Origin: Hydractinia symbiolongicarpus
Lineage: Eukaryota; Cnidaria; Hydrozoa; Anthoathecata; Hydractiniidae
Assembly: GCF_029227915.1 (NCBI RefSeq)
Contig: NC_079881.1
Location: 9,300,001-9,364,000 of the forward strand
Reading direction: 5' to 3'
DNA: 64,000 nt
Translations under genes and position numbers: made by a program
Shown: piece by piece, positions 1-57,450 of the stretch
Position numbering within the stretch: position 1 is the first letter of the stretch
How the letters are laid out: each line of letters opens with the position of its first letter
The notes under the pieces: model-generated
The model's database searches: none
Told to the model about the DNA's origin: nothing
What the model saw: only the letters and a program-made list of their open reading frames with translations

Positions 1-1306
1 AAAAAAGTTTGATCGGCCAAAATTTGGTCACTTTTCAAGAAAGAAGCTTAAAGAGCAAATTAAAACCATTGTTGTCTATGTACAGGTTGCTGCAGTGTTC
101 TTTGATGGAATTTAAATTATAAAATCAGCCGTTCCCCTTTAACCTGGTCCCCAGGGTTTTTGCCGGCCATCAAGTAAGCGTTAGCGGCCCTAGGCAGGGA
201 CGAGGATGGTTCCCCTATGTCATTTTCGCTTAAATCATAACAACAGTGCATTATTTCTCGAATTGGACGATAATTTTAATTTCTTTTAACCTTGCTTAAA
301 ATTGACCACACCCTTGACCACACCCTGACACTGCTTTCATCTTTCCCCGTAAATTACCAATGTGCACGGAGTTAGTATAATAAAGCTGAGTGCCGAGGGA
401 CGAGAAAATGGTACAACCAGTCAGTGATATTTACAAAAATTGGTCAAAGATTAGATCTGCTTGTGTGGCACTCAGGCCTGGATCCCTGTGTGTGTGAAGC
501 ACAGAGTGATTTTTGGACACATCCAAACAATACAACGGAGGAGGGAGGGAGTGTTTAGACCGTTCAGTTCATGGGAACGATTTTGTCAAGCACTGGCTAA
601 AAGAAGACAACGAAGTATTGTTGATATTCTCCCGTGAGTATTTTCTCTCATTTAAAATTTATTTCGTACAAAAATAGTCATTTATTTAATCTATCACTAA
701 GCACATGCTGGAAATGATAAAAGTTGCCCAGCAACAGCCGCTTCAATTTACTTTTGTGGTTAACTATTCCATTTTCTTCATAAATGTTTTACAACGTGAC
801 GAAGAAGCTATCAATATTGAAAAGGCTGAAATGACAACTGACAAACACAACTAAACTAATCTCATATTTATAACACTACAAAAACATACCCAACGAAGGA
901 GGGCTTATTGCCAAACAAAAATAGAAGAATACACTATGTCACTGAAAAATACACTATGTCACTGAAGAATAAAAAAAATACCGAGTCTTACTCTCGAAAC
1001 AAGGCGTGCGAAAATGTTAATCATATTCTCGATTTGCGGTGTATATAAAAAAGATGGACAACCTTGAATATCAGAGACAAACGAATATATTTGCAGGTTT
1101 ACAGACACTGGAGACGAAGTTGACATAAAAGTAGTGATAAATAAATAAAGCAAATAAGAAAGGTGTAGCAAAACATTAAAAATGTGTAAAAAAAGTTCAG
1201 AGACAAAAATTAATTTATATACATTCTTAATTCACGAAAACACGTACAAATTTTTTAAAAGAAATAACTCAAAAAACATTAAATCGTGCCGCTAAAAACG
1301 CTCATT
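1..1306. other. Noncoding flank downstream of the anoctamin gene
   Basis: No convincing exon was seen. It holds a hairpin element at 140-208 (described separately) and the short direct repeat AATACACTATGTCACTGAA at about 930-965. The anoctamin 3' UTR should lie just left of 1307. Confidence 0.6.
140..208. repeat. Hairpin element family A, copy 1
   Basis: The ends AACCTGGTCCCCAGGG and CCCTAGGCAGGGACGAGGATG are roughly complementary. Flanking 9-mers at 131-139 (GTTCCCCTT) and 209-217 (GTTCCCCTA) agree at 8 of 9 bases, consistent with a target-site duplication. The interior contains CAAGTAAGCGTTAGCGG, shared with the copy at 14433-14552. Confidence 0.75.
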
Positions 1307-4300
1307 CTAAACTCCAACCGAGTCAACCGGTCCATCGTCCGGTTCACGATGCGTGTGAGTTTTCTCCACATCTGGTCTTGGCTTTCGCTTTCCAGATTTC
1401 TCTTTGTGGTTTTTCTCTGCTTCTGATGCGATGAAATTTTCACGCTTCACTTTCAATTCCAAGGCTGCAAGAAAAAGTTACGGTGGACGTTTAAAAATAT
1501 GATTACAAGACAGAGCTAGCCCTGCAAGCGAAAAAGCTAAACGAGGTTCATACACATACCAGACATGCTAGCACAGCACACAGCTTTATTTGCGACTGAC
1601 AACAATACAGAATCAACATGGCGCATATCGTAAAAGTTTTCACAAACTTCATACCCAGTGTTTTACTGAAGGAAGTGGGCTATTCAATTTCCCAGGTTGA
1701 TACTTGAACGTTTATTAGAATCTCCACAAGTTTTTCACTCAGCCGTTTATTCAAAGAGATTTTTCAAGCAGGCGTTTATTAAATTTCCTAGGCTTTTGTT
1801 CAGGCGTTTATTCTACGCACTGCTTATTTAGTCTGGGCGTTACATGACAACTAAAATATGCAGTTAAAATTACGTAAACACGATGCGAATAAAAAAATCT
1901 CACTTTTCGGCACATCTGGAATGAGGTACGCCACAACAAACGTGACAGCCAACACGAAAGCCTGGAATGCTATGATAAAAGACAATCGCGCAGCAAGAAT
2001 GATCCAGTAGTCCTTGCTTCTCCTGTACGGAGAAGTATCTTCGTGAAACCCGGGGTATCTAAACAAAGTGAAGATATGGTTAAAGTTTAGCCTGTACATA
2101 TCCGGAACCATACTATGGGTAGTCTGCTTGACTGAATATTGTTTTCAACCGGAAGATTAAGAGGAACTGGCTGCTTTATAACGCAGTTACGTGCCGGTGA
2201 AGCCTCATCCAGTATCCAACATTGTTGCGCATGCTTTTCCCCATAGATGTTATAATTAAAATTACCTGCAATAGTCTTGTATTGGATAGCCATTTAAAGT
2301 AGCATTATCAGGGCGAGATGCGTTTTTAAAATCAGATACTTTGAAGTAAGACAAGGTGAAGTTAGTAAAGCCATGCAAATCGTTTGTTTCTGAGAAGTAG
2401 TATTTGTAAGCCAGCCGAGGTATCAATTCGGATGTGAATGCAAGTACGAAAGCATTCACGATGGTGGAGAACTAAAAAAGAAAGAAGGAGAGTGTACCAA
2501 AGACAAAAAGAGGGAAGAGTGTAAAAATCTATTTTTAGAGAGAAAACGTTGCGCGGGAAGAAATTTTCGCGGTAATTTAACCTCATTTTCATTTTCCGTA
2601 AGAGTTTCTTCCGTAAAACACACAAAATCAGCGAAACGAAAATTTGTTTTAAGTAAAATTCATAAATTTATGACGTAACAGCTAAAAGGAAAAAGGTTTT
2701 GGGGGACATATTTTTTTATTTTAAAGTTAACGTGAAAGTCAAAATATCTATTGCTTCAAAATGATAAGTTGGTGAATTTACATTAAATTAAAGATATTGC
2801 TGCATAGCTAGGAAAAATGTACCAGAATAAGAAATTTAGCGAAATTTTGAGTTCCTAATAAAAAATATAAAACACCTATGCGATTTCAATTTTTTGTAGA
2901 ATTTTTAATTAAATAACGTTATACCATTCACGATTAAAAACAAGTCTTACTGTGGTCAGCGTTGCTAGGATACCGTACCAGGCACCGATATCTTCAGCAC
3001 GTTCGGCAGCAGGCCTTCTAAAGTTGTGAATGAAGTTCACACCATCCAAACGAATTTCGACCAAATTGTTAGCCAGGGCGAAAAAGGGAGCGAGCGGAAA
3101 CGCAGCCACAAACATCGTAACAAAACCGTATTGAAGAACTAAAAAAAAAAATTATCAATGTTTCTTGACTTGAGGATGAGATAAAAGTCCTTTCAACTAC
3201 TAACTCGCAAAATATTGATAAATTAAAAAACAAAATAACTGATAGATTAATAGGAATCATGCTACAAAAAAATTTTGAAGGTACAGAACTGACTGCAAAA
3301 CTCCTTTGATGCTGACAAACATTCAGGCGGAACTTAAAAAGAATGTTTTCAATAAACAAAGACGTGTAGTTGTACAACAAAGTACGATCTAGTAAGAGTA
3401 TACATTTTACAAGGAAATTTAAGAAATCATTCACTATACTAATTTTGTATAAAATTACCAGGCTTCATGCACATCGCAGCCTGACCACTTTACTAGACTT
3501 GCTCCAATTCCATAAGTTTTTACATTATAAATAAATTAGCATTCAACTGTTTACTTCCAGCATTAAAAGTTAATATTTACACGTAATTTGTTTACCTATT
3601 TCAAGATACTGCCAGAACAGCGAGAATTTCGTTTGCATTTCACATTCGAAATCTGTCACCCACTGTGGTTCATCAGCAGCAGAGTAAGCTTGTGTCTTGC
3701 GGTTCTTCCAGTCTCGGAATTTGTTTTTTAAGTAACTGAAAAGGAAAGCAAATTAGCAATGCAGTTAAGATATAATATAATCTATCTCCATTTGAACGTT
3801 TTAAAACAGAAAATGCGTCACTGTTTAGAAACTTACGGGATGACAATTTCCATGATATTGCCGATGATTTGTTGGCCAACCATAATGATTATTAGTTGCA
3901 CGGTTAACTCAAGAAAGCAACCTTGCACGGAGCAACCATCGAAACGGAAATTTTTATTGGTGAATCGTTTGTACTGCCCTGGAGTACCAGTGAAATATTC
4001 ACCTTTAAAAAACGCCACATAGAAGATGGACGAATAGGTGTTAACGAATTGAAACCAAAACATTTTAACTGTAAAGCTGTCCTCGTAATCCGTCTTCGTT
4101 CGAGGATTTTCCCAGTCTGTAATTTTTACAGCAATTCTTTGGTAGATAAATTTGAGAAGATTGATAGCGACTAAATTAATACAAGCAGCACATGCAGAGT
4201 TGACAATTTTTGATCGCTGACGAATTAACTGATTTCTTTGACCAATCAAGAAGGCGTAAAATGCAGCGCGGAAAACTATTACGCCAGTAATGGCAGCCAA

Positions 4301-7300
4301 AACAAGAATGATGAAGAAAACAACAACACCAAACGCGCCAAATAGTCGAGTCATTCTTTGACCAGTAGGCATGTATGGTTCCATCTTAAGTGTGACTGGG
4401 TTCTCCTTCAATCTGGTGACAGATGCCAAATATTCCGGGCGTGGTCTTTCTTCTTCTTCTTCAAAATCCATCGTGTGCCAATCGTAAGCCAATGTGACTT
4501 GTTTTCTTTTCCAAAACTCGAGAAAGATGGTGGCCCAAAGCGACATAAACACTGCAAAAAATAATGTAGCTTCATTGTCGAAAAAATGGGTGATTTTACT
4601 ATACATACATCCTTGAGTTTGCAGTAGATAATACGAACACAGTTTGTCACATAACGGGCACATATAAAACAAGTGTGTGCCGTTTTTGTCTGACGGGTTG
4701 CAAATTTCTTTCACCGGTACATAATCCCAAGCTGAAGTTACGCCGTAGAGGAAACAGAGGAAGCCAACAATCGCAGCAGGGACTAAAAACATGGTGTAAA
4801 AACCAAGCCATGCAAAATAGAGGGCAATCTTTTCCCCAAAATAATCCTTGATAGCTGGTATCGGTTGGTACTTAAAAAATCTTTTCATTGTAGCCCAATC
4901 AGCTTGTAGACGCTGTCTGTCGTTAACTGGCGGTAGGCTGGAATCCTCACGCACCTGTCCATCGTGAAGGGGGTAAGCGTCTATAAAGACGCCTTTGTGT
5001 TGCAAGTTGAATACACCCAAGTCTAACTCTTTTGGACCAAATTTGGTTTTCTCTAGGATGTAAAAAACTAATCTTCCACGCTCAGCTACTGAAAAAAACT
5101 GATCTGGTTTGTCACCGTTAATGTATTCTTGTAATCTATCTTTATCGAAATGCGTGACAAAGTACTTCTGTTCTGGCTTTGTTGCTGGGTCGCGAATTTC
5201 AAAAGGATCGAACTTTTTAAAAAAGTCGTACACGCCACCCAATTTCTCATACCATTCTTTGATATAGATGTCATTTTCGGCGATCGGCATTTTCATCTTC
5301 ATATCTTCAGCGGTGTCACAGAGCACTTCAAATGGGGCGTGGACTTTAATAAAACGAACATCACTTTCCTAAAAAAACTCATTTTTATCAAAAACAGATC
5401 TGAATATATCTTATTAGAGTTAAAGAGTATAGTTTATCTCCTTCATTAGATATTGCTGACATCAACACATCCTTAGCAACCAGTAGCCTTATATAGATGC
5501 CTGAGGTACGGATGCCAGGAAAAAATCTGAGGAACGGAATAAGTAAAATGGACAAGCCCGTGGATTGATTTACAGGCTAATGACTAGTTTCTTTAATAAT
5601 AGCCGTATTTTGTCTGTGTGTCCGCGAGAGCCGCGTCCCGTAACGGAATCACGAAATTTTTATAACGCGCACAAATACCAAATGCGATATATTTTTGTCC
5701 ACTTTGTTACGACAGGTGAATTTAATGGACGGGCGAACCCGACGATTTCTCAACGGGCTAATGACTAGTCTCTATAATAATAGCATTTGCGTGTTCAAAA
5801 TGGTAGCTGAATTACTAATTCATGGTAAGGATATAAGAAATAGTAATACCAGGGATATGTACCGATATGGATACTTCCACAGTTACTAACTAATCTCTTA
5901 ACACCTGTTGTCCATCTATCAGATCAGGTCGATTTCCTGTTGAAAATGCTTAACTTTTTATGCCGAAATAGCAAATCGTACATATTTTTTAATGATTTTT
6001 GTGGACTTTTCACAGGTTAACAAATGAGCTTAATATGTTAGCTGTCAGTTGCAACAGGCTAATGACAGTTAACTCTAACAATCAAATAGGTCTCAAATTA
6101 AAATAAATAAGATCTCAAAATATTAAAAAAAATTAGATTTACATGTGGCATAATTCATAATTTTATTTGCAAATTTTGATATTTTTTATCATCAGTAATT
6201 TTAGAAATGTTATTGTGTATATATATATACATTTAAACTTATTGAAAGTAGAAGTAGTGATTTAAGTTTTTAGTGGTTAGCCACTTATTTCTAGACCTTG
6301 CCTATTGTTCCCAGGCTAAATTCTATTTGAGCTAAAGTAATCTGTGGAATATCTACCCAAAAGACAACAACCTTAGGTGATGATCGCACCCATGTTCATC
6401 TGGACACAAAATGCTAGGATAGTGATTGTTTACTTGTGTCATGTCATATCATTTAGACCTTCGGTTCTAATCCTCTAACCCTTCTTGAGTAGACTTAAAA
6501 AATCTCTAGATCGGTAAATGTGAATATTTTGAGAACAATAAAAGTTATAACTTTCTTCTAAGTGCCAAAGCTTAAAGGAACCCGAGGTATAAAATGATGT
6601 CGGGCTTATATTATAGAACTTAAAAAGTTAGTTAACAAGTCTTTTTAAATTTTTTGAAAAGTTCTTTTCGTTATCAAGTTATTCACATTTAAACAGATGA
6701 CAGAAAATATCAAAATTTGCTTTTACTTAAATATGACATCATAATGTATGCAGCATAATTAAATCTGAAATTCTTTAAATGTGAATATCTTGAAAAAAAA
6801 GAGCTTTCTGAAAAATTTAAAAAGACTTGTTAATCAACTTTTTAAGCTCAATAATTTTAAGCCCAACATGATTTTATACTTCTGGATCCTTTTAATTTAA
6901 CATGATTTTCACTTTGAGAATCATTTAAAACATCCTTTATAAAAGAAATAAAACCATAAAAGGAACTATTTAAACTTAGGGATGTGTAAAGGAGATGATT
7001 ACTACAATTTTTTTTAAATAATTCTAATTATCCTCTACAAAAAATTGTAATGTGAAAGCAGTCGTTTTTAAATGTAAGAAACTTTACAAATCCTGTTTCC
7101 GAAGATTAAACTTAAGGTAAGTACAAACATGATATATAAATAGTTTCATTAAACTTGTTGCCCCTGATGTTTTAAGAAAGACATCAATTAATAACAATTT
7201 GCTTGGTAGGCAAGTTATTAATTATATTTTCCTCTTTTATTGTTTACAGGAATTGATAAGGATACTATATATTAAGTTAGGTGAGGTGAGGTGAGAAAGA

Positions 7301-7940
7301 GCTGCTCAATAAAAAATTTTATATATGGCCTATGATTCATATGCTGTATTTTCACATGTAAAGTTCTTTAGTTTCAGAATTTTTTTTCTTAAAGATTTCT
7401 TTTTTGTTATGTATTTTAAGTCATTCTTAACACATATAGCAGCAAAAGCTTTACTTAAATCAATATAAATAAATAATAATGGTTCATAAATGTATAAAGA
7501 AACAAGTTTGTATGAATAAAAAAAATTTCAACATTTAGCATGATTATAATATAAACGTTTTGTTTTTTAAATCAAATGTCTTATTTTGTGGGCCTTAGTA
7601 AAAAATTGAATATATTGTTCTATTGTTTTTGCCTCATTGTTTTTTCGAATTATGAGGTTTTAATAATAATTCATGCTATGTTTGCACATATATTTTGATC
7701 AATTCATATTTTCTAAAAGTTTTATACAGGGGGTTTTGAGTTTCAATAAAAAACTAATTGTAAAGAAATGAGAAAATTTTTATATGCACTGCAAAAAAAA
7801 AATCCATGGTAAAAATGTGGACCAATTGACACCCTAATTCAAATCCATTTGGGAACAGGTAATAGAAGCTCAGAATGAAGCAATAGTACTAGAAATACCT
7901 GCTTTTTACTTTCGTCAAACGTCCCATAGGCTTCTTTTCC
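1307..7940 (-). CDS. Anoctamin (TMEM16 family) common body, seven exons
   Basis: Anoctamins are dimeric ten-helix membrane proteins acting as Ca2+-gated chloride channels and/or lipid scramblases. Exons read on the minus strand: 7899-7940, 3837-5368, 3596-3735, 2951-3138, 2266-2471, 1904-2058, 1307-1464 (TAG at 1307-1309). All junctions are GT-AG and the phases agree, giving 806 residues after any first exon. Seen: the cytosolic domain (RFIKVHAPFEVLC, AERGRLVFYIL), the Cys-rich first extracellular loop (CPLCDKLC), YDWHTMDFEEEEERPRPEY, YVAFFKGEYF, NNLVEIRLD in helix 8, helix 10 and IPDVPKTLELK near the C-terminus. With 70-112 residues from a first exon the protein is about 876-918 residues, normal for the family. 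Two canonical Ca2+-ligand positions look substituted (see findings). Which vertebrate paralogue is closest is not resolved. Confidence 0.95.
1690..1825. repeat. Degenerate tandem repeat, CGTTTATT core
   Basis: Four copies of a (G)CGTTTATT core spaced about 35-45 bp apart (near 1708, 1745, 1782 and 1805) lie in the intron between the last two anoctamin exons. The units are diverged. No function inferred. Confidence 0.5.
5551..5790 (-). repeat. Diverged copies of dispersed repeat family B
   Basis: Two reverse-oriented ends of family B, GGCTAATGACTAGT near 5575-5588 and 5756-5769, each follow a CCCG-rich hairpin remnant. The inner part has the GTCTGTGTGTCCG and ATAATAG motifs of the family. It lies in the 2.5-kb intron between the large anoctamin exon and the microexon. 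Confidence 0.55.
6572..6895. repeat. MITE-like element with long terminal inverted repeats (family C)
   Basis: The left arm begins TTAAAGGAACCCGAGGTATA at 6572, and the reverse complement of the right arm begins TTAAAAGGATCCAGAAGTAT, ending at 6895. The arms stay similar for about 100-130 bp (AAAAAGTT..TTAACAAGTCTTTTTAAATTTTT). A partial relative is at 37627-37870 in a PARP intron. The rest of the anoctamin intron 5369-7898 is AT-rich with no exon seen. Confidence 0.75.
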
Positions 7941-8714
7941 CTAAACAAAAACAATTGCAATAATGATACTGTCAATTTGGATAGTTAGACAGAGCAGAAT
8001 ATTTTTGAGTTTGAAATTAAAATCCTGGGTCTATATACCAGGTAAACTTGTACAACAAACAAATGCTCAAAGTCAAAAATATTGTGGGTCATTGGCTCTC
8101 AATTTCAGAAAGAGTTAAAGCAACAAGAGGGCTCACTCATGATGTGTTTGGGTTGTTGGAAAAGGGGAAGTTTTATTCTGTAATTCCCTATTCTTAAATC
8201 TCTATTTGTGGGGAAGAGATTGATTTCATATATGTTCTGCTAAAAGAGTCAAATTGGTCTACTTAAAAATAAAAGCAATTTCAACTATGCCAATAATCCC
8301 CAGAAATAAACTCTTCCATGCCAAAAACAAAAACAAAAGTATGGTAAATGCTGCATATATAATTCTTAAATATTTTTATATTATATATGGTTAAAACCAT
8401 CAGTGCTAATTTTACTGTCCAACCTAATGTCTAAAAAATATTTTTGTCGAGCTTTTAGAAATTTTAAGAAATTTAGAAAAACTTTAACATGCTATTCTAT
8501 ATACTAAACAAGTGCTGGGATAAAATTTACACAATTCTGTTTTTTAAACATTTTATGTAAATATTGTGGAATTGTATAATATATAATCTTGAATTGAAAT
8601 GAAAATTTACTTGCCCTTATGCAAACAAAAAAGTTACAATAACAAAAAAACTAAAAGGCAATATAGAAAATTCCTGCACCCATAAAAAATCAATTTCAAG
8701 GAACATACTCTTAC

Positions 8715-8924
8715 AAAAACATCAATTTCAATCTGAAGTCTCCATCTATGCAAATTTTTAATATATGCATCTCTATATGATCTTAACCAGCCCTCACTAT
8801 CTTTATCTTCATCATATGCAAGAATGGCATCGATTCTACGCACACCATCATTGAAGAAGTTGCCACCTTCCTTTTCTTTAGCAAGATTTTTACATTCTTT
8901 AGTTCGTAACAGGAATGCATTCAT
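8715..8924 (-). CDS. Anoctamin alternative N-terminal exon A (proximal)
   Basis: This exon encodes 70 residues, ATG at 8924-8922 to a phase-0 donor (GTAAGAG at 8714-8708), with the anoctamin N-terminal signature NFFNDGVRRIDAILAY and then YIKNLHRWRLQIEIDVF. It joins in frame to the 42-nt microexon 7899-7940. The usual Gly-Leu-x-Leu-Glu near the end is degenerate here (WRLQIE). A possible acceptor (TTTTTAG) lies just before the ATG and leaves the frame open, so this could be an internal exon rather than a first exon. Isoform length 876 residues if it is a first exon. Confidence 0.8.
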
Positions 8925-9662
8925 ACTATGATGCTAAAAACTTTTGTGGCCAGACCTACAAACATGACTAACTTAATTTTACCATTTAGGAAAAGTAAAT
9001 CATTCAAAAGATCATTTTATTTATGAATTATTGAAAACTTTATTCAAATCAGATCATACTATTGGAAAAATTGTAGATTCGTGCAACATTTATGATTTCC
9101 TTTGGATTTGATCTTTGCTATTCATACAAGATCAATAGCTGGATATTGGAGTACATAAATGTATAGCCCTATTAAAACTGTGAAGAAAAAATAATGTGCT
9201 CTCTTTATTATAACTACTAATTGTGTTATTAAGGTGAACGTCACAAGTATTGGTATTGGAGTCACCCAACCAACCCTATTTTTAGATAGCAATTTTGAAT
9301 AAATGTATGGGTTGCCTCCTTTACATGCCATCTGGTGCAACCAAAAAGTATTTGTTAGGGTTATTATTAAGTATTTAAGTATTTGTGAATGAACCGTTAC
9401 AAACCCTTACTGGCTCTCTAGAGTGCATTCACTGAAAAAATAGTGAGCTAAAAACAATGGCCTTTGTCTAAGGCCCTTTTTACTTTTAAAGCTCTTGTCT
9501 TGTTTAGCTATACCAAACATAGAGAAAATAGCTAACATGCTACTGAATTTTAAAAAGGGTAGAAAGCTAGCTAGCTAAATTGCCTTTTTATGCAAGAAAG
9601 GTGACATCAATCAGAAAAGCAAGTGATTCCTGGATATAATATGAATATTAACATGAATAAAC

Positions 9663-9998
9663 CTGGTCTCCACTGCTGATTTCTGCATGTTCTATTTCCA
9701 ATCCTTTGGACTGCAAATTTTTTATATATGTTTGGCGATATTCCTCTTTCTTTGCAGCTTCTTTTTCATCATCTCCAGCAACAATTTCGTAGGCAAGCAT
9801 ATGATCAATCTGCCGAATACCATCCTCAAAGTATAAACTTTTGATCGAGTTGCTCTTCTTCTTTTCCGCCATCTCCATGCTCGTCAAAAGTCCCGAACGA
9901 TCATCTGCCATTGTAGGATTTTGGACTACAGGCTCCTTATTTTCTTCTTTGTTTAATGTCCGCCCTACCTCCTGAGTCGCTAGGTTGTCGTCAGCCAT
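9663..9998 (-). CDS. Anoctamin alternative N-terminal exon B
   Basis: This exon encodes 112 residues from ATG 9998, or 83 from a second in-frame ATG at 9911. The second ATG has the better Kozak context (A at -3, G at +4) and its product aligns with the start of exon C (RSGLLTSMEM against KAGLLSSSMEL). Core signature LYFEDGIRQIDHMLAY, then YIKNLQSKGLEIEHAEISSGDQ. The donor is CAG|GTTTAT, weaker than the others but phase 0, and splices to 7899-7940. The reading frame stays open upstream to 10226; that hydrophobic, Lys/Tyr-rich stretch looks like 5' UTR. Isoform length 918 or 889. Confidence 0.85.
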
Positions 9999-10235
9999 TA
10001 AAAGCCAAGAATAGCGATAAAATAACAATATATATCTGCTCAGGGTTGCATAAATTACTTTTTGCAGCAGTGAATAATAAACCCAACAAGGCGTGATGGA
10101 CTTTACGATCTTCCATTGTTCTTTAACTCTTTGTTTACAATACAGCCATTTTGTTAATTTTAAATAAAGTAGTTTAAAAGAAATCAAAACAAATGCACGT
10201 GACCTATCGTGTAATTTACCGAACAAAGTGTAATT

Positions 10236-10293
10236 CTAAAAAAAGGTTAGAGGAGTATCCCGGGGACGGGATACTCCTCTAACCTTTTTTTAG
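10236..10293. repeat. Perfect 27-bp inverted repeat, 4-nt loop
   Basis: Arms 10236-10262 and 10267-10293 are exactly complementary around the loop GGGA (10263-10266); the arms start CTAAAAAAAGG. It sits between anoctamin exons B and C, about 240 bp upstream of the exon B start codon. No flanking direct repeat was seen. It may be a recent hairpin insertion. Confidence 0.9.
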
Positions 10294-11254
10294 GACCCGT
10301 TTATGAAATCCGTAAGAGTTTATTTTATTGGAACCAGATCGACAATTAGCCAATCATCAAATAAAAGTTCAACCTTGTTCACGAACCTACATTGTTTTTA
10401 ACGGCGCTACAGTTTGTCACGAGTCTTGACCGTGCAGTAAAATGAACTAATGGCCTCGCATAAAAAAATATGAATAATATAGCATAAATTATTCAAATTA
10501 TGCATTTATGTCTGGAATATTGCTATCCTAATCAATATTGATTTATATATTTTATCTCTATTATGAATGAAATTTTTGTTGATTCAGTGAGCCAGAAACT
10601 TGTTAGTTTCATTATTTTAAAGTAGAATATAGCAGAAAACAACTCAACAACGAAACTCCAGTGCCGTAAAATAGGTGTCACACAGTGCTAAAAAACAACA
10701 GGGTATTCTCTCATTTGTTGTTACTATCACTTCTACTATCTTGGGATATGTATGGCCACGTGTTCCGTACGTGTTCCTTGTCATCCAAAAACACAGTGGA
10801 TTTTTGCATCGCTTTGAAAAAACAGCAACCCCGATCCCAGGACCTGTTGTCTCTTGCTGTTTATACGATATATTCGTCAGACATATCTAATAAGCACAGG
10901 TCAGTGGAAGACAAAAACGACGTTGGTAAATTAGGTTAAGAAATATTGTGTTAATTGTGATATTATCAAATGACAACGCCATTATAGATGAACTACAAAA
11001 ATAGCAAACTCGAACCCGCGCAAGTAGCGTTTTTATAAATAAGTATCGTATAATAATATATAATAGAGAACGAAAGCAAGTCGGAAGGTATCAGATATTA
11101 ATAAAACAATCTCTTTCCCAGGGCTACTTTTTCGCTTTTTCATATGTGACTAGCACTGCACCACAAGTAATATCGAAAATTAAAAAGAAGCTATGGGACG
11201 AGATTGCATGAAAAATAGGCCCGATATTTTAGGTCGTTTTACTGGCGTACTAAC

Positions 11255-11497
11255 CTGATTCAAAGAGGTGTCGTTCGCCTCTTCTAGTAACAAACCCTCC
11301 TTTTTTAAATTTTCTAAAAAAAATTCTCTTGCTTCAGCTCGTTCCTGTTCTTCTTTACTATCCTGGTTTGATGGCTGATAAGCTAACATGTAGTCTATGC
11401 ATCGTTCGTTGTCGTCAAAGAAGAAACGAAAAGTCTTCCTTCTTTCTTTCAGTTCCATACTGCTAGATAACAATCCAGCTTTTTCAGTAGCAGGCAT
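11255..11497 (-). CDS. Anoctamin alternative N-terminal exon C
   Basis: This exon encodes 81 residues from ATG 11497 to a phase-0 CAG|GTTAGT donor. Core signature FRFFFDDNERCIDYMLAY, then REFFLENLKKEGLLLEEAN. It is homologous to exon B over its whole length, including the MPATEKAGLLSSSMEL start, so the two probably arose by local duplication. A stop lies upstream in frame, which supports this ATG. Spliced to 7899-7940 it gives an 887-residue isoform. Divergence from B in the acidic linker (QPSNQDSKEEQERAEA) is large, so the copies are old. Confidence 0.87.
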
Positions 11498-13011
11498 GAT
11501 AAGTTTTGTCTTACCGTCGCTCCCAAATGTCGTCCAAAAAAGAGCGCTCCGAAACCTCTCACTGTCAGACAGTGTGAATGTTTGTGGAGTGTTGTGTTGT
11601 GTGGAAGTTTACTTTCACACTATAACATTGTGACGCCACGCACAGGTCATGACCCATCATCTTTGCACAAATAATGTGTTATTATTAATATTACAATTTT
11701 CAGAAAAAGGAAATTAAAAAAGGGTATTAAAACTGTAATTCTAAGTAGAAATTACATCTAAGAAAAAAAAAGGAAATTTGTTTAGCTTTAATTAGAATAG
11801 ATCCCCTTGCCGACAGGGGTTTTTAATTAGAGTCAGCAAAAATGAGCCTTGTTTAAATGTAGGGGAAATCATCTTAGCTTAAATATTTTCGATACATAAA
11901 AAACATCAAACAAGTTTTATAAGATTGTTGCAAGTGTATTAATCAGAAGCTATCATTTCAGAAAATTAACCTGTAACCCATTTATTTGTAAAAGGTTAAA
12001 AAAGTTCAAAGAAAGAGTCGTTTGTTCATTAATATATACAGTATAAGGGTCTCTTGATTTCCGTTTGTTGTTCTCCATAAATCAAATGTTAAGTGGTACG
12101 TGTTTTAAATCATTCCACTGTGGTAATGTTTGCTAAAATTTTAACTCTCGTTCCCAAACCTGTTTCAAAATTATGCTACGATTACCAAGCGTCTGCCGTC
12201 CAGTGAGCATATCATAGAAATAAAAGAGATCTAGGGACAAGATTTGTTTTCACTTCGATTGAATGAATTAGAATGTTTCACTCACTGAACATGCGTTGTT
12301 TAACTTTACACTAGTACCTAGGACTCTCTCCCTTAATTTTATATTTTTATTTCCTTATTTATTTTTTTATGTAAGCGCTTAAGCTGTAAGTTTCGCCTTA
12401 ACGGAAAAAAACGATGTTTAAACAAACACCTTTTAATAACATGCTAACCAACCTCAATTACAATGTATTTTGTCTCTTATTTTTTAAAAAGAGAAAAAAC
12501 TCTGGTGTCTAGGTTGCGTGTTAGCTTTAGTTTTAAACCAAGACCTATCGACTGAGTTGTTGATTTAAGTTGTGCAGCTCTAAACAAATGTACTCACCTC
12601 GATCCCACAGCTCTGTAAAAATTCTATTCGAGGTTGACTCTGTCCTAATAAACGTGAAAGTGAGCGACAGGGATACTTATTTGAAATCATAGGTTCGTGG
12701 TTTATATTTTTTGTACTGTAATTACTTGAATATTCCCCCACATTTGTCCATGTGCCTACTTATATATAGTGTGTAACGTAGTTCTACTTTTGTCAGAAAT
12801 TATTGAGGTTGGGTGTTTTTTGTAAATTGTTTTAACGGGGTCAAATCTTTCTATCAGGAATTTATTAACAAGCGGGGCTGAGAATATTGTTAGCAACTTT
12901 CTAACCTGCTTTCTTATTCTTTATTAGACCATGGCTTAGGACTGCACATGTATTTATAGTAACTGAAACAAGGGAGATTTTCTTCTAATAAGCAAGTTAG
13001 ATTTTTTCTAC

Positions 13012-13245
13012 CTCGTTCTTTTTTTCTGATGCATCGTCTTCGGCTGCTTCCAACTGCAGTCCTTTTTGTTTCAAGTTTTTATAAAATGCTTTTCTCTTTT
13101 TTCTTGCTTCGATATCTTTTTCAGTGTTTTTAAACTTTCTATGTACTAGTATGTAATCAACCTTCCGCTCTCCATCGTTGAAATACCAAGACTTTCTTTT
13201 TGATTGTTTGTCACCCTCAGTTTCATCCTTTCCGTATATCGTCAT
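13012..13245 (-). CDS. Anoctamin alternative N-terminal exon D (distal)
   Basis: This exon encodes 78 residues from ATG 13245 (G at -3) to the phase-0 donor GAG|GTAGAA. Signature SWYFNDGERKVDYILVHRK, then RKAFYKNLKQKGLQLEAAED, closest of the four to the textbook anoctamin N-terminus. The frame is open upstream to an ATG at 13413, but that extension is hydrophobic and Cys/Phe-rich with no family similarity, and a possible acceptor (TATTTTAG) lies within it; I prefer 13245. Isoform length 884. It is separated from the microexon by 5.1 kb containing the other three N-terminal exons. Confidence 0.85.
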
Positions 13246-13794
13246 GACAACGCAGTGAGGCGATTTTCTAAAATAGAAATACCGAAAAAGCTTATCGAAA
13301 CATATACATGCCTTGCAAATGTTTTTTGTGAAGAAATTGATTATCATCAGAAAGCAAGCTAAAAATGAGTATTCATTTGCCTCTTTATTCTGGGCAGAGA
13401 GGTGCCCGTACATTTAAGGGGCAGAAGGCGTTGATAAAGTTTTCTAGGTTTTTGCTCTGGCAGTCATGTGTGTCGTTGTTTTTTGTGGCATTAATTTGTG
13501 GTACTAGCTACAAGTTTTACGAAGGGACCCTGTTTCTCAATAAAAAGTCGAAACTAACCGAAAAAGTGAGGGATCATCTGAGCAATCCCCAACGGACCCT
13601 TCTTTCTCGAATGGTCTACATGAGACATGTCACTTGCACCATTGCTGGGATATACTTAATTTATCTCTCAAATCGCCCCGCATATTCAGGAGACTGAAAT
13701 TTAGGTAAATTAAGCAAAACTTACTTAAAAAAAAATCTGCAATAATAACCTATATAGAATAGAGCTTTGATTTTCCAAATATGATGCCTTGACA

Positions 13795-13874
13795 CAATCT
13801 CGTTTCTGGGGCATTTTTCCTTTTTACTGAATTTTTAACGGCTCAGGGGCCATAGGACCCTGAGAACGAGGTTG
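13795..13874. repeat. Hairpin element family A, copy 2
   Basis: Left end CAATCTCGTTTCTGGGG, right end CCTGAGAACGAGGTTG. The flanking 9-mers GCCTTGACA (13786-13794) and GCTTTGATA (13875-13883) match at 7 of 9 bases. The interior includes the GGCTCAGGGGCC palindrome. Confidence 0.75.
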
Positions 13875-14040
13875 GCTTTGATAAACTTACTACTAAAAAA
13901 TCTAAGCTTATAAAAAGGAGGTTGATGTCAGGACCCCCTACGTGAAGAACAAGCCTTTTTTATTTTCATCTAACGTTTTTTATATTTAGCAGGCTGTATA
14001 TTTAGATCCACTGACAAATATTTCTAGAATGGATTTAAGG

Positions 14041-14159
14041 CAACCTCGTTCCCAGGGCAATTTTTCGCTTTTTTGATATCCGAGACGGCGTGAAGAAATG
14101 ATTTCTTCTCGCCGTCCGAGATTGTCAGAAAGAGAAAAATGGCCCTAGGGTCGAGGTTG
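14041..14159. repeat. Hairpin element family A, copy 3, perfect 9-bp TSD
   Basis: CAACCTCGTTCCCAGGG at the left and CCCTAGGGTCGAGGTTG at the right bound a self-complementary interior (GACGGCGTGAAGAAA against TTTCTTCTCGCCGTC). The flanks 14032-14040 and 14160-14168 are both GATTTAAGG, a perfect 9-bp direct repeat. Confidence 0.9.
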
Positions 14160-14432
14160 GATTTAAGGATCATTTGTACAGAATGGAATTTAGTATATTG
14201 TCGCCGGACTTCTAAGGAAACAAGTGGAGCGCTGCTTAAAACTTGAGGGTTGTGTGTAAGGAGCTCCTGTTTTACTTTAGTGGTTTTAAATCGCTATCGT
14301 TAGTTTTCAAAATTCTGGCTAAGGACAAAAGTTTATGCATAAAACGAACTTCCTAAACGAAGATGGGTAATTTTTTTATTTTAAACTCATTGTCATAAAG
14401 AAGTTAAAAAAATTATTTTTTGTGTGTTTACG

Positions 14433-14552
14433 CAACCTCGTCCCCATGGGTTCGTGACTTTTTGACATCAGGCCGCCGGCAAGAAACATTTTAGCCGTCA
14501 AGTAAGCGCTAGCGGCTTTTCCATCAGGCAACAAACCCTAGGGACGGGGATA
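14433..14552. repeat. Hairpin element family A, copy 4
   Basis: Left end CAACCTCGTCCCCATGGG, right end CCCTAGGGACGGGGATA. The 9-bp flanks GTGTTTACG (14424-14432) and GTGTTAACG (14553-14561) differ at one base. The interior shares CAAGTAAGCGCTAGCGGC with copy 1. Confidence 0.85.
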
Positions 14553-25414: not shown

Positions 25415-28400
25415 TTAGATGCAGTGAGAAGCATCACCTGCTCTTGCTTGTTTGATGTATCGATCACAGCTATCTTTTTTATCACAATCTTTGCAACACC
25501 ACGCATATGGCTCTACATCGTCTTCTTTATGGTTTTCCACAGATTTATCAGGTGTTCCTGCTCCAGGGTGACCTGGCCGTAACAAAGTTCCACTTTTATT
25601 GTAACAACACTGTTGTCTGGCTCCATATTGACTTGTAGCAGAAGAGCGGAGACAGCCATCAGCTCCTGGGTGAAAGTAAAAGCACATTGGAGCTCCATTA
25701 CCAATACATGCACCGTCTATATCCCAGACTTTGTTTGATGGGTTGTCAATTGCTTCCAATCCCAATTTGTACCATGGATTTTTTCTGACTTTGCATGGAC
25801 ATTTAAAATTCTTATTTAAATCAAGCAACCACGCATTATCACTCTTTTCACGTTCGGCCCATTTCTGGCACTTTTCACAAGCGCAATTAGCCGCTGTTAA
25901 AAAGAGAATATTTGGGATAGGAATAATATCGTCAAGAAATTTTTTATCTCTGCAGTAAGATTTATTCCAATAACACTTTTTCTTTGCGCGACATTCTTCA
26001 CATGCTTTTATGCACGAGCAATCAGTTGCTTTCTTTTCCTCGGTACAATCCGTTTCTACTACTAATGTTGCACTTTTCCCTTTGGTATAATCATAAGAAC
26101 TTTCATCGTGACTCCCAAGAATTCCTTGAGGATCTTGAACAGTGATTTTTCCTTGACCTCCAACTTTTGTAACCGAAGCTGTATAATCGTAATCCGGTGT
26201 ATTACGATTTGTTGCAACGTGCTGTATTCTGATTGGATATGAACCAGGCTTGAAATTGTAATTTCCTGAACCAACCAAACCAAAACCAGGAGATTGATGA
26301 GATACATCTCCGACATACATTACATACCTTTCTGAATGACTTCCGCTGTGGTCACCAATTGTAATTCTAATTAATACGTCTTGGGTATCTGGAGGTGGCA
26401 TCCCTCTATCAATTGGATCTCGAGGGTCAGCATTATTTTTTACTTCAGCCCCGTCCAAAGCTCCGTCACCATCAGTGTCTGGATTTAGGGGATCAGTTCT
26501 GAGAATTTGTTCTTTTAAATTTGTCAACCCATCACCATCAGCATCTGCTTTTGAATCGTCCTTTTTCACTGGACTCATGTTATTGAAATATTCAAATCCG
26601 TCAAGCAGAAGGTCGCCATCAGAATCTGGATTTAATGGATTTGTACCAAGTTCTTCAACATTGATGACATTTCTTCGTGTTCGGACTTTGTCTTTTTCAA
26701 TGAAGGATTGGTTTCCATAATATTCGATGATATTAACAAGAGCATCTCCATCAAAATCAGCAAGGTATAAACTCTCACTGTTATTTGCTGATTTGAAATA
26801 GTGAAGAACCCAATCATCCCAATATTCTGGCTTTCTAATTGAACAGTATTCATCTTTGAACATGATTTTATTATCTGATGGAATCACACTGTAACTCTGA
26901 GGTAGATCAGACAATGTGCATTTTATTTTGAAACATTTTTTCTCGTTGACGCATAATTTTTCCATGTAATCGAATGGAACTTTGACGTGTATTCGAGGAT
27001 TCGAACAATCAGTCGGTGTAGCTGGCAGTACGAAAGTAGCAGTTGACAATACAATCACACCAATTAAAACTGCGTATCGTTTATTTATTAACCAAACACA
27101 AAAGAATACCATAAAGCACGTGATCCATTTGTTGACATTAGTCGTTGTTGCCATAGCTTTTTTAGTGAGTTGTACTTTCAAAATCATTTCATCGTTTTTG
27201 TACGTAATGTTGTGTGATACATGGCTGTTATGCGCGATTGTGATGTTACTGGTTCCTTTTTCAACTTCCCAGGTAACTACCACTCCTGCAGGGTGTGTGA
27301 GGCGAATGGATTTGATAAATTGTCCATAAACAACTGTATTTTGCCATGTGCAATTTTTTTCAGCTGGAAGTGGGGCAACAAAAGCTGCCAACACCACTAT
27401 CAACAACCTAAATAGAGAAGCAAGAAAGATATGAAATTAAGAGGCGTACGGGTTGGTGAAAACAACAGCAATGTGTAGATACAGCATACTTATTTTAAAA
27501 ATAGTCGTTTATATGTATTAACATATTATAAGTTTTCATGGTACTTTTTTTATCAAAACGAGCATAGTCTATTATAGAATATAGAATTATAATGAACTCT
27601 CTCATAAAAGAACCTTGGCGGGTAAAATATTAAATTATGGCAGCTTTATTTGTATTATAAGCCAGCTATATCAGTATAAAAATCTGTAAAAAGTCAGCAA
27701 AAAATAAAGTCAGGAAAAAAGCTGAGGAAAAAATTTGGCCGGTACAAAATGTTTGTCATTGAGCTAAAATGTGGTCTAATCTTAAGTTGGTTGACACACT
27801 TTTAACCAAAATATATGAGAACTAGTCTGTGGCCGGTGGATAAAACCACGGGTTAGCACGTCCTTTATTTATCGCATTTCGTGTGTCTCGCTACAGTTGT
27901 CACAAGTTTGCGTGACACACAGATTTATAATACGGGTATTGTAAATATAGATTTGCAGTGTTTTCTTTTACATCAACCTCATTCCCAGTGCATTTTGTTT
28001 TTTGATGAATTTATATTTTCTAGTTTTGCTTACTGCATAACGTCGTTGTTTATTTTTTGTTAAGATTTACTCTAATATGATGTCTCGCCTGGGCGCGAAC
28101 TGTACCGACTCACATGATCGAAAGGACATCGTCAGCATTTTTTCTTCTTTTTTTTATCTTATATGACAAGTTAATCAACTCAACCCAACTTCGTCCACAG
28201 GCTCTTGTGGACCTTGAGCCATTATTACGGAGTGCATCAACAAGGCAAAATAACCTGGGAACGAGGAAGCTTAAGAACGTGACGGAAGTTATTTTATTTT
28301 GGTTGTTTTTATTGATGTAGAAACTTGTTACTGCAGGTTTAATGTAAACATGCCTGCACCAGCCAGCCATTTATTCTGTAGTTTATTTATTTATTTTTTT

Positions 28401-51056: not shown

Positions 51057-51079
51057 TGGTAGCAGAGGGTAGTTAAACA

Positions 51080-54000
51080 ATGGCTAGTGGATTTTTAAAC
51101 CCACCACGGTGGGATGAAGAAAACAAAGAGTTTTCATTATGGCTCCGAGAAGCCAAGGCATGGAAAGTTGCCACTTCTGGTGTAACTGGACTGAAAGATG
51201 TTCATGGTTTGCAATTAGCATTGCATCTTCCGGATGGAAGCGAAATACGTCGTCAACTATTTGATACCCTTGATACGGAGAACATGACAGGTGATGACGG
51301 GTGGAAAAAGGTGATAGAATTGATAGAAACGTACTATAGTAAGGACGATAACACGTCAGCCTTTGACACGTGGAAAGACTTCCGTATATTATGTAGAAAA
51401 GAAGATCAAAGTATTGAACAATATATCATGTATTATGAGAAATATAAAGTCCGAATGGAGCGCTTCGACATGAAACTTGGTGAACGTATTCATGGACTTA
51501 ATTTACTGTGTGGTGCCAATCTTAATGATTCTGACCTTCGTCTAGCAATGAGAGAAGTTGATGGGGATCAACCAAATGAAATGTATAAACAAGCTAAAAA
51601 GGCGCTTAAGAAATATTTTGGCAGTGCTGCTGTCACAAGTACTCAATCATCCAACACCGCTGTAGCCTCAGTTCAACCTGCTGTCAAACAAGAGCCTTTT
51701 TTTGCCACACTAGATGAATACGAAACATACGTTGCATGGAGACAATACCGATCGAAAAATGGTAATTCATCAAATAAAAGTTATCGTGGACAAGGTCGTG
51801 GAAAATTGCAACATCGCAATCCCCTAAATGCTGACGGTAAACCTTTAACATGCCGTGTTTGCCGTTCAATTGCACATTTTGCTCGAGATTGCCCACATCG
51901 TTCTGAGAAACAACAAGGTTCGGAAGACAACCAACAGCATGATAGTTCTACAAACCGCTCCTGGGTTGCTTCTGTTAACTCTGATGTTATTGAATGCCAA
52001 GCATCTGATGCGTCTATGGCAGGTGGTGTTGCATTTAACTATATGATTCTCGATACAGGTTGCCCACAGAATGTTGCCGGAGTAGTATGGACACAGTGTT
52101 TTCTTGATTCCATGAGTACTGATATGTACCAAAATGTCAAAAAGCTTCATGGTAATAACAAATTTAAATTTGGTGGTGGACGTGTCATGAAATCTATGTA
52201 TACCATTATAGCTCCTGTTTTGGTTGCTGGGGAAATCACTTCCTTAAAATTCGATGTTGTTGACACCGATCTTCCTCTTCTGCTTGGAAAGGAAACTATG
52301 AAAGCATGGAATCTGCTCATTTGTACAGGAAATGACACTGCTGAAGTTACAATAAATCGTGTGAAGAAAAATGTTGAGCTCTTCACATCCCCTACTGGAC
52401 ACTGGTGTATAAATGTGCAGCCAGGTTTTCCTGTTGAAGTACTGGATGTTATGTTTTCTGTTAGTGAATTGTCCAAACATGACAAAGAACTTGCTGCTAA
52501 ACGCTTGCATCGCCAATTTTGTCATCCTCCCTTTGAGTTCTTAAAGAAAGTCCTCAGTGTCCTGGATAAGCCTGACAAGGAATTTTTGGACATTCTGCAT
52601 AAATATTCTCAGAATTGTCTAGTGTGTAAGCGATACAAACCGACCATTCCAAGGCCAGCTGTCGGAAACTTAATGGATCCAGATAAAATGAAATTTAATG
52701 AAATAGTTAGTATTGATTTGAAAGAAAGGAAGGGTAAATGGATAATTTACCTCATCGATATGGTTACTCGATACACACGTGCTGATTTCATACCATCTAA
52801 AGAAAAACGCATCGTTGTTGCAAAGATTATAGAACTTTGGTTGCCTATATTTGGAGCAGCTAAAAGTTTTCACATGGACAATGGAGGGGAATTCGCTAAT
52901 GATGAAATGCGGGAACTTGGCAATCAATTTGGGATAAACATCAAGCACACCGCTGCTTATAGTCCTTGGGCAAATGGTCTGAATGAACGGAATCATGCAA
53001 CTATAGATATTATGATGGAAAAAATGCTAGAAGATCACCCGAAGTTATCAGAATCACTGGCATTGCAGTATGCTATATCTGTACGAAATTGCTGTATGTT
53101 TGTAAATGGATTTACACCAGCACAGTTAGCAATAGGTCAAAATCCTAGACTGCCATCAGCTTTCCATGATGAACTCCCGGCCTTGGAAGGCATTACCACC
53201 AGCTCTGTAATAGCCCAGCATCTTAATGCCATTGCTGCAGCCAGAAAAGCTTTCGTGCAAGCAGAAATAAGCTCAAAGCTTCGCAAGGCATTAAAACATC
53301 CTGTTCGCGAGTATGCAGATATTTTCTATCAGCCTGGTAACCAAGTCTTCTATAAACTACCAGACGATCGGCGTTGGCAAGGGCCTGCTACTGTCATTGG
53401 TGCAGATGGTAAAGTTGTAATGATTCGTCATGGCAGTGTTCTTCGTCGTGTTCATCCATGTCGTCTGCAACTTGTTAATGAAATTAGTCACTCCTCGTCA
53501 CAACCAGATTCCTCACCACAAGCAGCAGGAAATAGTCAGTCAGATATTACTCAAAATCTGGAATCAGGGTATGAACAGCACCACATTGCAGAAGAAGAAA
53601 CTGAACAGGAAGTACAACATTTTACTGAACATGTTGCAACTCACCAACCAGAAAGCTCAATTCAGCAACCAGAATCTGGTCCTGTTGCCAGATCCAAGAT
53701 GTCCCTCCCAAAAAGACAACAGACAGTGCAATACAAATATCCTGATGGAGAATGGAAAGAAGTAAAAATTCTAGGCCCTGCTGGAAAAAAGGGTGGGATC
53801 CACAAAGATTGGGTAAACGTTCGAGATCACTCTGACCATGAGTATTCTATGGATTGGAGTGATGTATCAGAATGGAAGTTAGTCGAAATTGAGTCAGACC
53901 CAACAGGAGGTGATCCCTCTACTCCTTCTAATTGTGAAGAAGAGATGTGTGTTGCCGTATGCTTCAACGCACCAGATGAGTTCAAGAATGCCAAGAGTGC

Positions 54001-55453
54001 AGAACTTGAAAAATGGAAACAGTATGAAGTTTACCAAGAGGTTCCAGATGTAGGTCAACCCAGACTAACTGGTAGGTGGGTATGTACCCGAAAAATTGTT
54101 GACGGAAAACTTGTACCGAAAGCAAGATATGTCATCCGAGGCTTTCAGGAAAATATTAACATACCTGCTGACTCACCAACTGGCAGTAAAGAATGTATGA
54201 GACTAGTGCTTTCTATAATTGCCAGCAAACAATGGACACTAAATTCTATTGACATAAAAGCAGCTTTTCTCCAAGGCAAACCAATACAACGGGATGTCTT
54301 TATTGTTCCACCATGTGACGTACCCCTTCCAAACACACTCTGGAAGTTAGAAAAATGTGTGTACGGTCTAAATGATGCTGCTCGTATGTGGTATTTTGCA
54401 GTATGGGAAGCATTACAAAATTTAGGATGTCATAGATCAACTATTGATTATGGTGTTTTTTATTGGAAAGATAAAAATGATCAATTGTCTGGTGTGTTAC
54501 AAGCACATGTTGATGATTTCCTTTGGTCCGGTACTGATGTTTTCAAAGCTGATGTCATAGATAAGCTTTACCAAATATTTCAAGTTGGTCATTCAGCATC
54601 ATCACATTTTAAATATGTTGGTATTAATATCAGCCAGAGTGAATCTGGACAGCTATCACTTGACCAATTGGATTATATTGAAAAAATCGATCAAATTCCA
54701 ATCACCCGAGAACGTCAACTTCAGAAAGATTCCATTTGTACCAAGACTGAATCTTCTCAATATTGCAGATTGGTTGGTCAGTTAAACTGGACTGCTACAC
54801 ATACTCGCCCGGATATTGCCTTCGATATTTCTGTATTGAGCTCGACTATGAAAGCTCCTACTGTGTCTAATATCTTGAAAGCAAATAAAGTGCTTCAAAG
54901 AATCAAAGGTAATCCATTAAAGATTCATTTCCCTAGCCTTGAATCATTGGAAAATTGCTCCATCATATGCTACAGTGATGCATCGTTGGCAAATTTGTCA
55001 TCAGGTCAAAGTTCAGGAGGATATGTGGTGTTCCTCTCTGATAATAAAGGGAAGGTGTGCCCATTAGTTTGGAGTAGCAAAACTATTCGACGTGTTGTTA
55101 GAAGTACACTTGCTGCTGAAACAAGTGCCATGGTGGATGCTCTTGATGCTGCATACTTTATGTCACAAGTTCTTACTGAAATGATTTCCATACCAAACAC
55201 GCAATGTAAGCACATTCAGATTCATGCATTAACTGATAATGAATCTCTTTACCGAAATACTTACTCAACAACAATGGCTGCAGAGCGCCGACTCAGGGTT
55301 GATATTTCTGTTATAAAAGAAATGATTTTGAGAGAAGAACTATCCAGCGTGAAATGGATTCCTACATCCATGCAACTTGCAGATCCATTGACAAAAGTTG
55401 GTGCAGACCCAACAAAGCTGACAGCTGTTTTGGAAACTGGAAACGTCGGATAG
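51080..55453 (+). CDS. Copia gag-pol polyprotein, 1457 aa
   Basis: One uninterrupted frame from ATG 51080 (24 nt past the 5' LTR) to TAG 55451. By approximate residue: gag 1-250; CCHC zinc knuckle about 257 (CRVCRSIAHFARDC); aspartic protease DTG about 325 (ILDTGCPQN); integrase HHCC (LHRQFCH ... CLVCKRY) about 475-520; DDE core about 545, 600 and 635 (SIDLKE, MDNGGEFAND, NERNHA); RT about 970-1240 (NSIDIKAAFLQGK, CVYGLNDAARMWY, catalytic HVDDF about 1143); RNase H about 1298 onward (CYSDASLAN, LAAETSAM, LADPLTK). The order protease-integrase-RT-RNase H is the copia order. There is no gag/pol frameshift, so expression of the gag excess must use another route. GalEa-like affinity is a guess from the RT wording. 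Confidence 0.97.
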   Translation: MASGFLNPPRWDEENKEFSLWLREAKAWKVATSGVTGLKDVHGLQLALHLPDGSEIRRQLFDTLDTENMTGDDGWKKVIELIETYYSKDDNTSAFDTWKDFRILCRKEDQSIEQYIMYYEKYKVRMERFDMKLGERIHGLNLLCGANLNDSDLRLAMREVDGDQPNEMYKQAKKALKKYFGSAAVTSTQSSNTAVASVQPAVKQEPFFATLDEYETYVAWRQYRSKNGNSSNKSYRGQGRGKLQHRNPLNADGKPLTCRVCRSIAHFARDCPHRSEKQQGSEDNQQHDSSTNRSWVASVNSDVIECQASDASMAGGVAFNYMILDTGCPQNVAGVVWTQCFLDSMSTDMYQNVKKLHGNNKFKFGGGRVMKSMYTIIAPVLVAGEITSLKFDVVDTDLPLLLGKETMKAWNLLICTGNDTAEVTINRVKKNVELFTSPTGHWCINVQPGFPVEVLDVMFSVSELSKHDKELAAKRLHRQFCHPPFEFLKKVLSVLDKPDKEFLDILHKYSQNCLVCKRYKPTIPRPAVGNLMDPDKMKFNEIVSIDLKERKGKWIIYLIDMVTRYTRADFIPSKEKRIVVAKIIELWLPIFGAAKSFHMDNGGEFANDEMRELGNQFGINIKHTAAYSPWANGLNERNHATIDIMMEKMLEDHPKLSESLALQYAISVRNCCMFVNGFTPAQLAIGQNPRLPSAFHDELPALEGITTSSVIAQHLNAIAAARKAFVQAEISSKLRKALKHPVREYADIFYQPGNQVFYKLPDDRRWQGPATVIGADGKVVMIRHGSVLRRVHPCRLQLVNEISHSSSQPDSSPQAAGNSQSDITQNLESGYEQHHIAEEETEQEVQHFTEHVATHQPESSIQQPESGPVARSKMSLPKRQQTVQYKYPDGEWKEVKILGPAGKKGGIHKDWVNVRDHSDHEYSMDWSDVSEWKLVEIESDPTGGDPSTPSNCEEEMCVAVCFNAPDEFKNAKSAELEKWKQYEVYQEVPDVGQPRLTGRWVCTRKIVDGKLVPKARYVIRGFQENINIPADSPTGSKECMRLVLSIIASKQWTLNSIDIKAAFLQGKPIQRDVFIVPPCDVPLPNTLWKLEKCVYGLNDAARMWYFAVWEALQNLGCHRSTIDYGVFYWKDKNDQLSGVLQAHVDDFLWSGTDVFKADVIDKLYQIFQVGHSASSHFKYVGINISQSESGQLSLDQLDYIEKIDQIPITRERQLQKDSICTKTESSQYCRLVGQLNWTATHTRPDIAFDISVLSSTMKAPTVSNILKANKVLQRIKGNPLKIHFPSLESLENCSIICYSDASLANLSSGQSSGGYVVFLSDNKGKVCPLVWSSKTIRRVVRSTLAAETSAMVDALDAAYFMSQVLTEMISIPNTQCKHIQIHALTDNESLYRNTYSTTMAAERRLRVDISVIKEMILREELSSVKWIPTSMQLADPLTKVGADPTKLTAVLETGNVG

Positions 55454-57427: not shown

Positions 57428-57450
57428 TGTTAAAAAAACTGTTTTGATTT

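Follow-up and report, generated by a model that had tools for sequence, protein, structure and literature searches.

Can one anoctamin gene exchange the beginning of its protein by choosing among several homologous first exons? The question is raised by the anoctamin (TMEM16) gene on the minus strand of a 64,000-nucleotide (nt) stretch of the Hydractinia symbiolongicarpus genome (contig C7, 9300001-9364000; hereafter the window, in whose numbering positions are given unless a contig is named), where four small exons encoding the same kind of N-terminal module stand in a row upstream of one gene body. A sequence-only reading of this stretch had proposed that the four are alternative promoters/first exons of a single body. 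We think it rather probable that tandem duplication of the first coding exon has led to four diverged copies, each of which would be cis-spliced to the same microexon and body, producing alternative N-termini in the style of the UGT1 and protocadherin clusters. We favor this reading because the homology, phase, position and second-source conservation of the exons all fit it, and because one of them, exon A, is used in isoform X2 of the NCBI annotation.

Four putative first exons and one gene body

The first exons and the microexon that follows them are listed here in the order of transcription (D, C, B, A), with the positions that they cover in the profile of the anoctamin dimerization domain, PF16178.

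13012..13245, minus strand: first exon D, the most upstream; 78 residues; PF16178 1-55, 49.0 bits; orthologue P0123
11255..11497, minus strand: first exon C; 81 residues; PF16178 1-53, 49.2 bits; orthologue P0122
9663..9998, minus strand: first exon B, the nearest of the four to first exons of other hydrozoans; 112 residues, or 83 from the second ATG; PF16178 1-53, 45.0 bits; orthologue P0121
8709..8924, minus strand: first exon A; 72 residues, 216 nt; PF16178 1-50, 32.7 bits; identical to P0001 residues 1-72; orthologue P0124
7899..7940, minus strand: shared microexon, 42 nt, GKEAYGTFDESKKQ, phase 0 at both ends; present in NCBI isoform X2

The exons are separated by 0.7-1.5 kb. The sequence-only reading had given them lengths of 210, 336, 243 and 234 nt (A to D), all divisible by 3, and an ATG and a GT donor each, and this description was confirmed, on the minus strand: the frame from ATG to donor is open in all four, and every donor leaves in phase 0 and fits the same 42-nt microexon. 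One boundary calls for a correction, since the donor that had been assigned to exon A at 8715 is in phase, but isoform X2 has the residues VR between that end and the microexon and therefore leaves at 8709, which is in phase as well. The start of exon B may also differ, and lie at a second in-frame ATG (9911): the exons of the relatives P0125, P0130 and P0133 begin there, while a longer head resembling that of exon B is seen in P0002 and the orthologue P0121. Exon B aligns to Anoctamin-6 from residue 60 onward.

The homologous N-terminal module ascribed to each exon was borne out by PF16178 (Anoct_dimer; 221 profile positions, cut-off 22 bits), against which the exon queries, carrying the 14-residue microexon tail, scored 32.7-49.2 bits; in a six-frame PF16178 search of the genome without this tail all four exons were again above the cut-off. 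The profile is divided between the first exons, which cover positions 1 to 50-55, and shared exon 3, which covers positions 55-221, so that what is missing from the body is precisely what the four exons provide. The piece exchanged is predicted to be the opening portion of the cytosolic N-terminal domain and to precede the conserved F-x-K-x-H-A-P segment. Chance resemblance was considered as an explanation and rejected, because all four exons match one Pfam profile at one and the same end.

A hidden Markov model (HMM) of the four exons, which match it by construction (E 3.5e-32 or better), revealed no fifth copy or relic among the stop-free stretches of at least 12 codons in the window (next match E 0.069). 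When the body was compared by BLASTP with these stretches, only the known exons were returned, with no body fragment between the first exons. As in the layout of UGT1 and the protocadherins, tandem homologous coding first exons stand ahead of one constant set, and the phase of the exon end is common to all four copies, with a donor on each.

The remainder of the constant set consists of the following exons; exons 4 to 8 are defined by splice signals and frame, and the spliced product is identical to P0001.

3837..5368, minus strand: shared exon 3, rest of the anoctamin dimerization domain and first part of the membrane domain; PF16178 55-221, PF04547 1-278; product as in P0001
3596..3735, minus strand: shared exon 4
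2951..3138, minus strand: shared exon 5
2266..2471, minus strand: shared exon 6
1904..2058, minus strand: shared exon 7
1307..1464, minus strand: shared exon 8, with the stop codon

P0001 is the NCBI predicted 'anoctamin-4-like isoform X2 [Hydractinia symbiolongicarpus]'; its last 806 residues equal the spliced body (806/806), and it represents the annotated use of exon A with the body. NCBI models of such kind usually rest on RNA reads. The P0001 cluster has 5 member sequences on one contig, which may be other isoforms. The protein belongs to the anoctamin/TMEM16 family, with an Anoct_dimer (PF16178) domain followed by an Anoctamin (PF04547) domain, and its best solved relatives are Anoctamin-1 and Anoctamin-6 (E down to 1.2e-178). 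The region of transmembrane segments (TM) 6 to 8, whose acidic and polar positions we take to be those of the Ca2+ site, aligns with ANO1; one TM7 glutamate of ANO1, presumably a Ca2+-site residue, is Q at P0001 residue 639. This position is Q in 9 (P0001-P0009), E in 30 and D in 1 of the 40 proteins of alignment A3, which were chosen from 120 listed proteins (the best 120 of 4065 above threshold). The YG of the microexon, followed by T, S or A, occurs also in P0003-P0009 and is absent from P0002, P0010, P0012 and P0014 (12 alignment rows).

Conservation, divergence and origin of the copies

A search with four junction-bearing proteins gave 9 matches, 4 of which are close orthologues of the first exons: P0121 (B), P0122 (C), P0123 (D) and P0124 (A). 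These derive from Logan assemblies, and are genomic, because their frames run on into the intron. Their likely source is H. echinata, which is put at ~19 million years from H. symbiolongicarpus (PMC11067881). The orthologues differ by 3/112 residues in B, 4/81 in C, 5/78 in D and 5/72 in A (3-7%), all four frames are open, and the V (GTN) at the donor is kept in all four. For exon C the 4/81 changed residues compare with 7/24 where the frame continues into the intron (Fisher p 0.0026), a comparison that was picked after seeing the data, as this was the only long gap-free flank, those of B and D being too short.

The copies themselves are far more diverged, with a residue identity of 32-43% over 47-57 aligned codons; third codon positions are 27-45% identical, which indicates that the duplications are old. 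In 5 of the 6 pairs of copies the second codon position is the best kept (not in A-D), and in 5 of 6 the third is the worst (not in B-D), while the codon score of the reading frame exceeds that of the five other frames in every first exon. Exon A is without the G of the GLxxE motif, which is kept in B, C and D. The longest repeat in 7000-14500 is no more than 44 nt, and a single repeat, 30 nt long and located within A and B, connects two of the exons.

With an exon-only profile (7 sequences) 34 matches were obtained. Besides the four orthologues, 9 were judged by eye to be medusozoan (P0125, P0130-P0137); the remaining 21, which look like other animals, were left out. The 9 medusozoan frames are B-like or of Hydra, Clytia or scyphozoan type, and since no A- or D-like frame is found among them, B looks like the ancestral type of exon. 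A tree was calculated from 31 rows and 79 columns under a model without mixture, including 14 of the 120 listed proteins, 5 of the 9 junction-search matches (P0121-P0125) and P0130-P0137 (8 of 28); 17/28 of its inner branches are open. In this tree the stem of B is short among hydrozoan N-termini (0.2), and those of C (0.82), D (0.98) and A (1.95) are long.

The medusozoan anoctamin-4-like proteins Hydra P0003, Clytia P0004 and Rhopilema P0009 share with the Hydractinia gene the type of body, a B or related first exon and the YG microexon; unlike the Hydractinia array, the medusozoan frames retrieved include no A- or D-like exon, in a comparison of proteins and frames. The array is, so far as sampled, peculiar to this gene and to Hydractinia. 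Hydra anoctamin-4 presents a separate observation: the bodies of the NCBI 'isoforms' X3 and X5 (P0003, P0005) differ, X5 being without the N-terminal module, and the two are possibly tandem genes under one name.

Within the H. symbiolongicarpus genome, the PF16178 search detected the start of the domain four times at the array locus, and three other loci yielded it once each; at a fourth (C1) one N-terminal module was found by the local HMM. No array was detected by this HMM at the four other anoctamin loci (~20 kb each, 30 kb at C1; the C9 and C6 loci are outside the sample), and the idea that arrays are a general trait of the anoctamins of this genome was set aside accordingly. The motif is split between exons at two of the other loci (C8:24.87 Mb and C4), and of two weak local-HMM matches one (E 0.15) appears to be the C4 module's other half; the second has E 0.86.

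The claim of a single body stands for the complete body, but has to accommodate a truncated copy of its 3' part: window 1-3892 and 459 nt past the left end (~4.35 kb) are repeated ~42 kb away in the same orientation (C7:9257438-9261791) at 98.4-98.9% identity. This copy comprises exons 4-8, preceded by the final 56 nt of exon 3, and is either a recent truncated 3' gene copy or an assembly duplication. No retrocopies freezing an exon junction were noticed among the 32 matches of the search that turned up this copy. Elsewhere in the window we observed, by eye, a long frame resembling a Copia-type polyprotein (51077-55450, plus strand), another resembling a reverse transcriptase of the kind without long terminal repeats (non-LTR; 55712-57463, minus strand) and a 673-codon open frame in which D-x-D-G-D motifs recur in the manner of calcium-binding repeats (25418-27436, minus strand).

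Splice sites, upstream regions and competing explanations

The best donor score belongs to C (7.8), followed by B (4.1), A (2.4 at 8715 or 3.8 at 8709) and D (2.2, the lowest); the six body donors, scored by leaving out one at a time, span 1.8-7.8, and all four first-exon donors lie within these limits. Between 8000 and 14500 no donor-like site is stronger than ACG/GTAAGA (9.2 bits; exon end 11515), a little upstream of the ATG of exon C, and a splice in the 5' untranslated region (UTR) from 11515 that skips the start of C is possible. Within 300 nt before each ATG, the best acceptor-like sites are at 253 nt (A), 237 nt (B), 260 nt (C) and 22 nt (D). Of the three best sites per ATG, one for A, 9 nt upstream with a score of 1.6 bits, and one for B, 237 nt upstream with 4.6 bits, are in phase 0 with an open frame; C and D have none. 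The site ahead of exon D delimits one further feature, which may be where a 5' UTR exon starts or where a spliced leader is attached:

13246..13267, minus strand: stretch from the acceptor-like site to the ATG of exon D; acceptor score 6.0, with 3.7% of window AGs as high

About 240 nt upstream of exon B there is a perfect inverted repeat (10236-10293; two 27-nt arms with 4 nt between), one end of which carries the acceptor-like site in phase with exon B. The search for RNA families in Rfam gave no match. In stretches of 3.75 kb, the lowest observed/expected CpG ratio of the window is at 6001-9750 (0.26 vs a median of 0.82); this CpG-poor stretch begins inside exon B, runs over exon A and into the intron before exon 3, and suggests germline methylation. 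The four 400-nt upstream regions have four 6-mers in common, vs a mean of 4.6 in random sets.

Several observations weigh against the use of all four exons as alternative starts of one gene. The donors of D and A are ordinary, the proportion of window GTs scoring as high being 0.7% for C, 11% for B, 13-23% for A and 25% for D, and codon scores are modest: of 64 open stretches elsewhere, 2 score as high as C and D, and 5 as high as A and B. No 7- or 8-mer is common to the four upstream regions, and exon A sits in the CpG-poor stretch. Any constraint on exon A is putative, as its flanking intron appears, by eye, to be kept about as well as the exon itself. A single clade for the four exons was neither demonstrated nor rejected by the approximately unbiased (AU) test (p 0.129), and the tree carries long-branch warnings and many weak forks. 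The local HMM missed a module at C8:26859843 that PF16178 found, and could miss diverged copies. Finally, no B, C or D transcript joined to the microexon was among the 9 matches of the one junction-bearing search; for this gene and its near relatives (P0121-P0125) it gave only frames that continue into intron, and as a negative it is weak, because any A junction was missed too.

These points have to be set against what other histories would predict. If only one or two exons were used (B, and A as annotated), and the others were duplicates on the way out, open by chance, one would understand the long branches of A, C and D next to the short one of B, the donor score of D, the lowest, the loss of the G in A together with its equally kept flank, and the missing transcripts of B, C and D. 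We regard this as rather unlikely, since none of the four exons has lost its open frame or the GTN at its donor in either source, C has changed less than the intron frame beside it, A is present in isoform X2, and the copies are old enough by their third positions that unused frames should have broken. That the extra exons once belonged to separate genes, as remnants of tandem whole-gene duplications with lost bodies, is very improbable: the locus does duplicate, as the partial copy ~42 kb away indicates (window 1-3892, 98.4%), but that copy has 3' exons and not first exons, no body fragment lies between the four exons, and no repeat in this region is longer than 44 nt, with only the 30-nt stretch joining two exons (A and B).

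Rather unlikely, too, is the explanation that the four exons are used but not through four promoters, one or a few transcripts starting upstream and being resolved either by cis-splicing of a non-coding 5' exon to alternative sites or by trans-splicing of a spliced leader to acceptors ahead of each ATG; it overlaps the reading that we favor, which leaves the mode of choice open. Hydractinia adds spliced leaders in trans (PMC11067881), and such addition could also make separate 5' ends. The acceptor-like sites ahead of each ATG, the strong donor-like site just before that of C and the want of a shared promoter-like word are in line with this explanation. Against it, such sites are common (15 acceptors above 6 bits in 6.5 kb), the best one of B reaches only 4.6, and the spacing of the exons leaves room for separate promoters. 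Alternative first exons on one body are retained from the sequence-only reading as the best account; the promoters that it invoked are putative, the upstream regions having no 7- or 8-mer in common.

According to the tandem-duplication reading, then, the first coding exon would have been copied in tandem to a total of four, B remaining of the ancestral type and A, C and D diverging fast and then persisting. Each exon would be joined separately by cis-splicing to the same microexon (at 7940) and body, giving isoforms with a whole anoctamin body and a different set of first 70-112 residues. B, C and D would be used in mature mRNA, as A is in the annotation, and the choice would be made through separate transcription starts or spliced-leader addition.

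Relation to known systems and meaning of the array

The layout itself is known from other gene families. Compared with the Hydractinia array, the UGT1 and protocadherin clusters have more copies and larger variable exons. In UGT1, tandem variable first exons, each with its own promoter before it, are spliced to one common set (PMC1885805), and variable first exons are likewise spliced to one common set in the clustered protocadherins (PMC3325998). The Hydractinia array resembles both in its tandem variable first exons and common set, and differs in that its four exons are small and encode the start of a domain, and in that its promoters are putative. Tandem arrays of related exons also give alternative protein segments in genes of the Dscam type (PMC1397879); unlike these internal exons, which are chosen by splicing, each Hydractinia copy has its own start codon.

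Among the open-licence papers searched we found none that treats anoctamins together with alternative first exons, tandem exon duplication or Hydractinia, and no four-member array in the family. The earlier statement that such a homologous array was not known is matched by this result, with the qualification that in ANO1 the N-terminus is known to vary through alternative promoters, segment a being under one (PMC8480199). There, as we propose here, the cytosolic N-terminus of an anoctamin is changed by the choice of the 5' end; unlike in Hydractinia, the variation consists in residues added by exon 0 or in the presence or absence of segment a, and the available part of that source describes no array of mutually replacing homologous exons (PMC8480199). 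Segment a of ANO1/TMEM16A matters for surface expression (PMC8480199; PMC4876403). By analogy, the Hydractinia variants probably alter trafficking or regulation, and their role may be in trafficking, Ca2+ response or the choice of dimer partner. A more elaborate possibility, which we consider quite unlikely, is that each cell type selects among the four modules, with trans-splicing of spliced leaders at competing sites perhaps contributing to the choice; this would give four subunits of one channel/scramblase, different in their cytosolic dimerization domain, and up to ten dimer types, and would amount to a variable-first-exon code in a TMEM16 gene of the Hydractinia lineage.

Even for ANO1 the function of the anoctamin N-terminal cytosolic segment has not been fully worked out (PMC8480199). 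An identical body with four natural, conserved variants of this segment would constitute a ready-made test of what the segment does in trafficking, Ca2+ response and partner choice, and the locus would show a small cluster of variable first exons arising within one cnidarian lineage.

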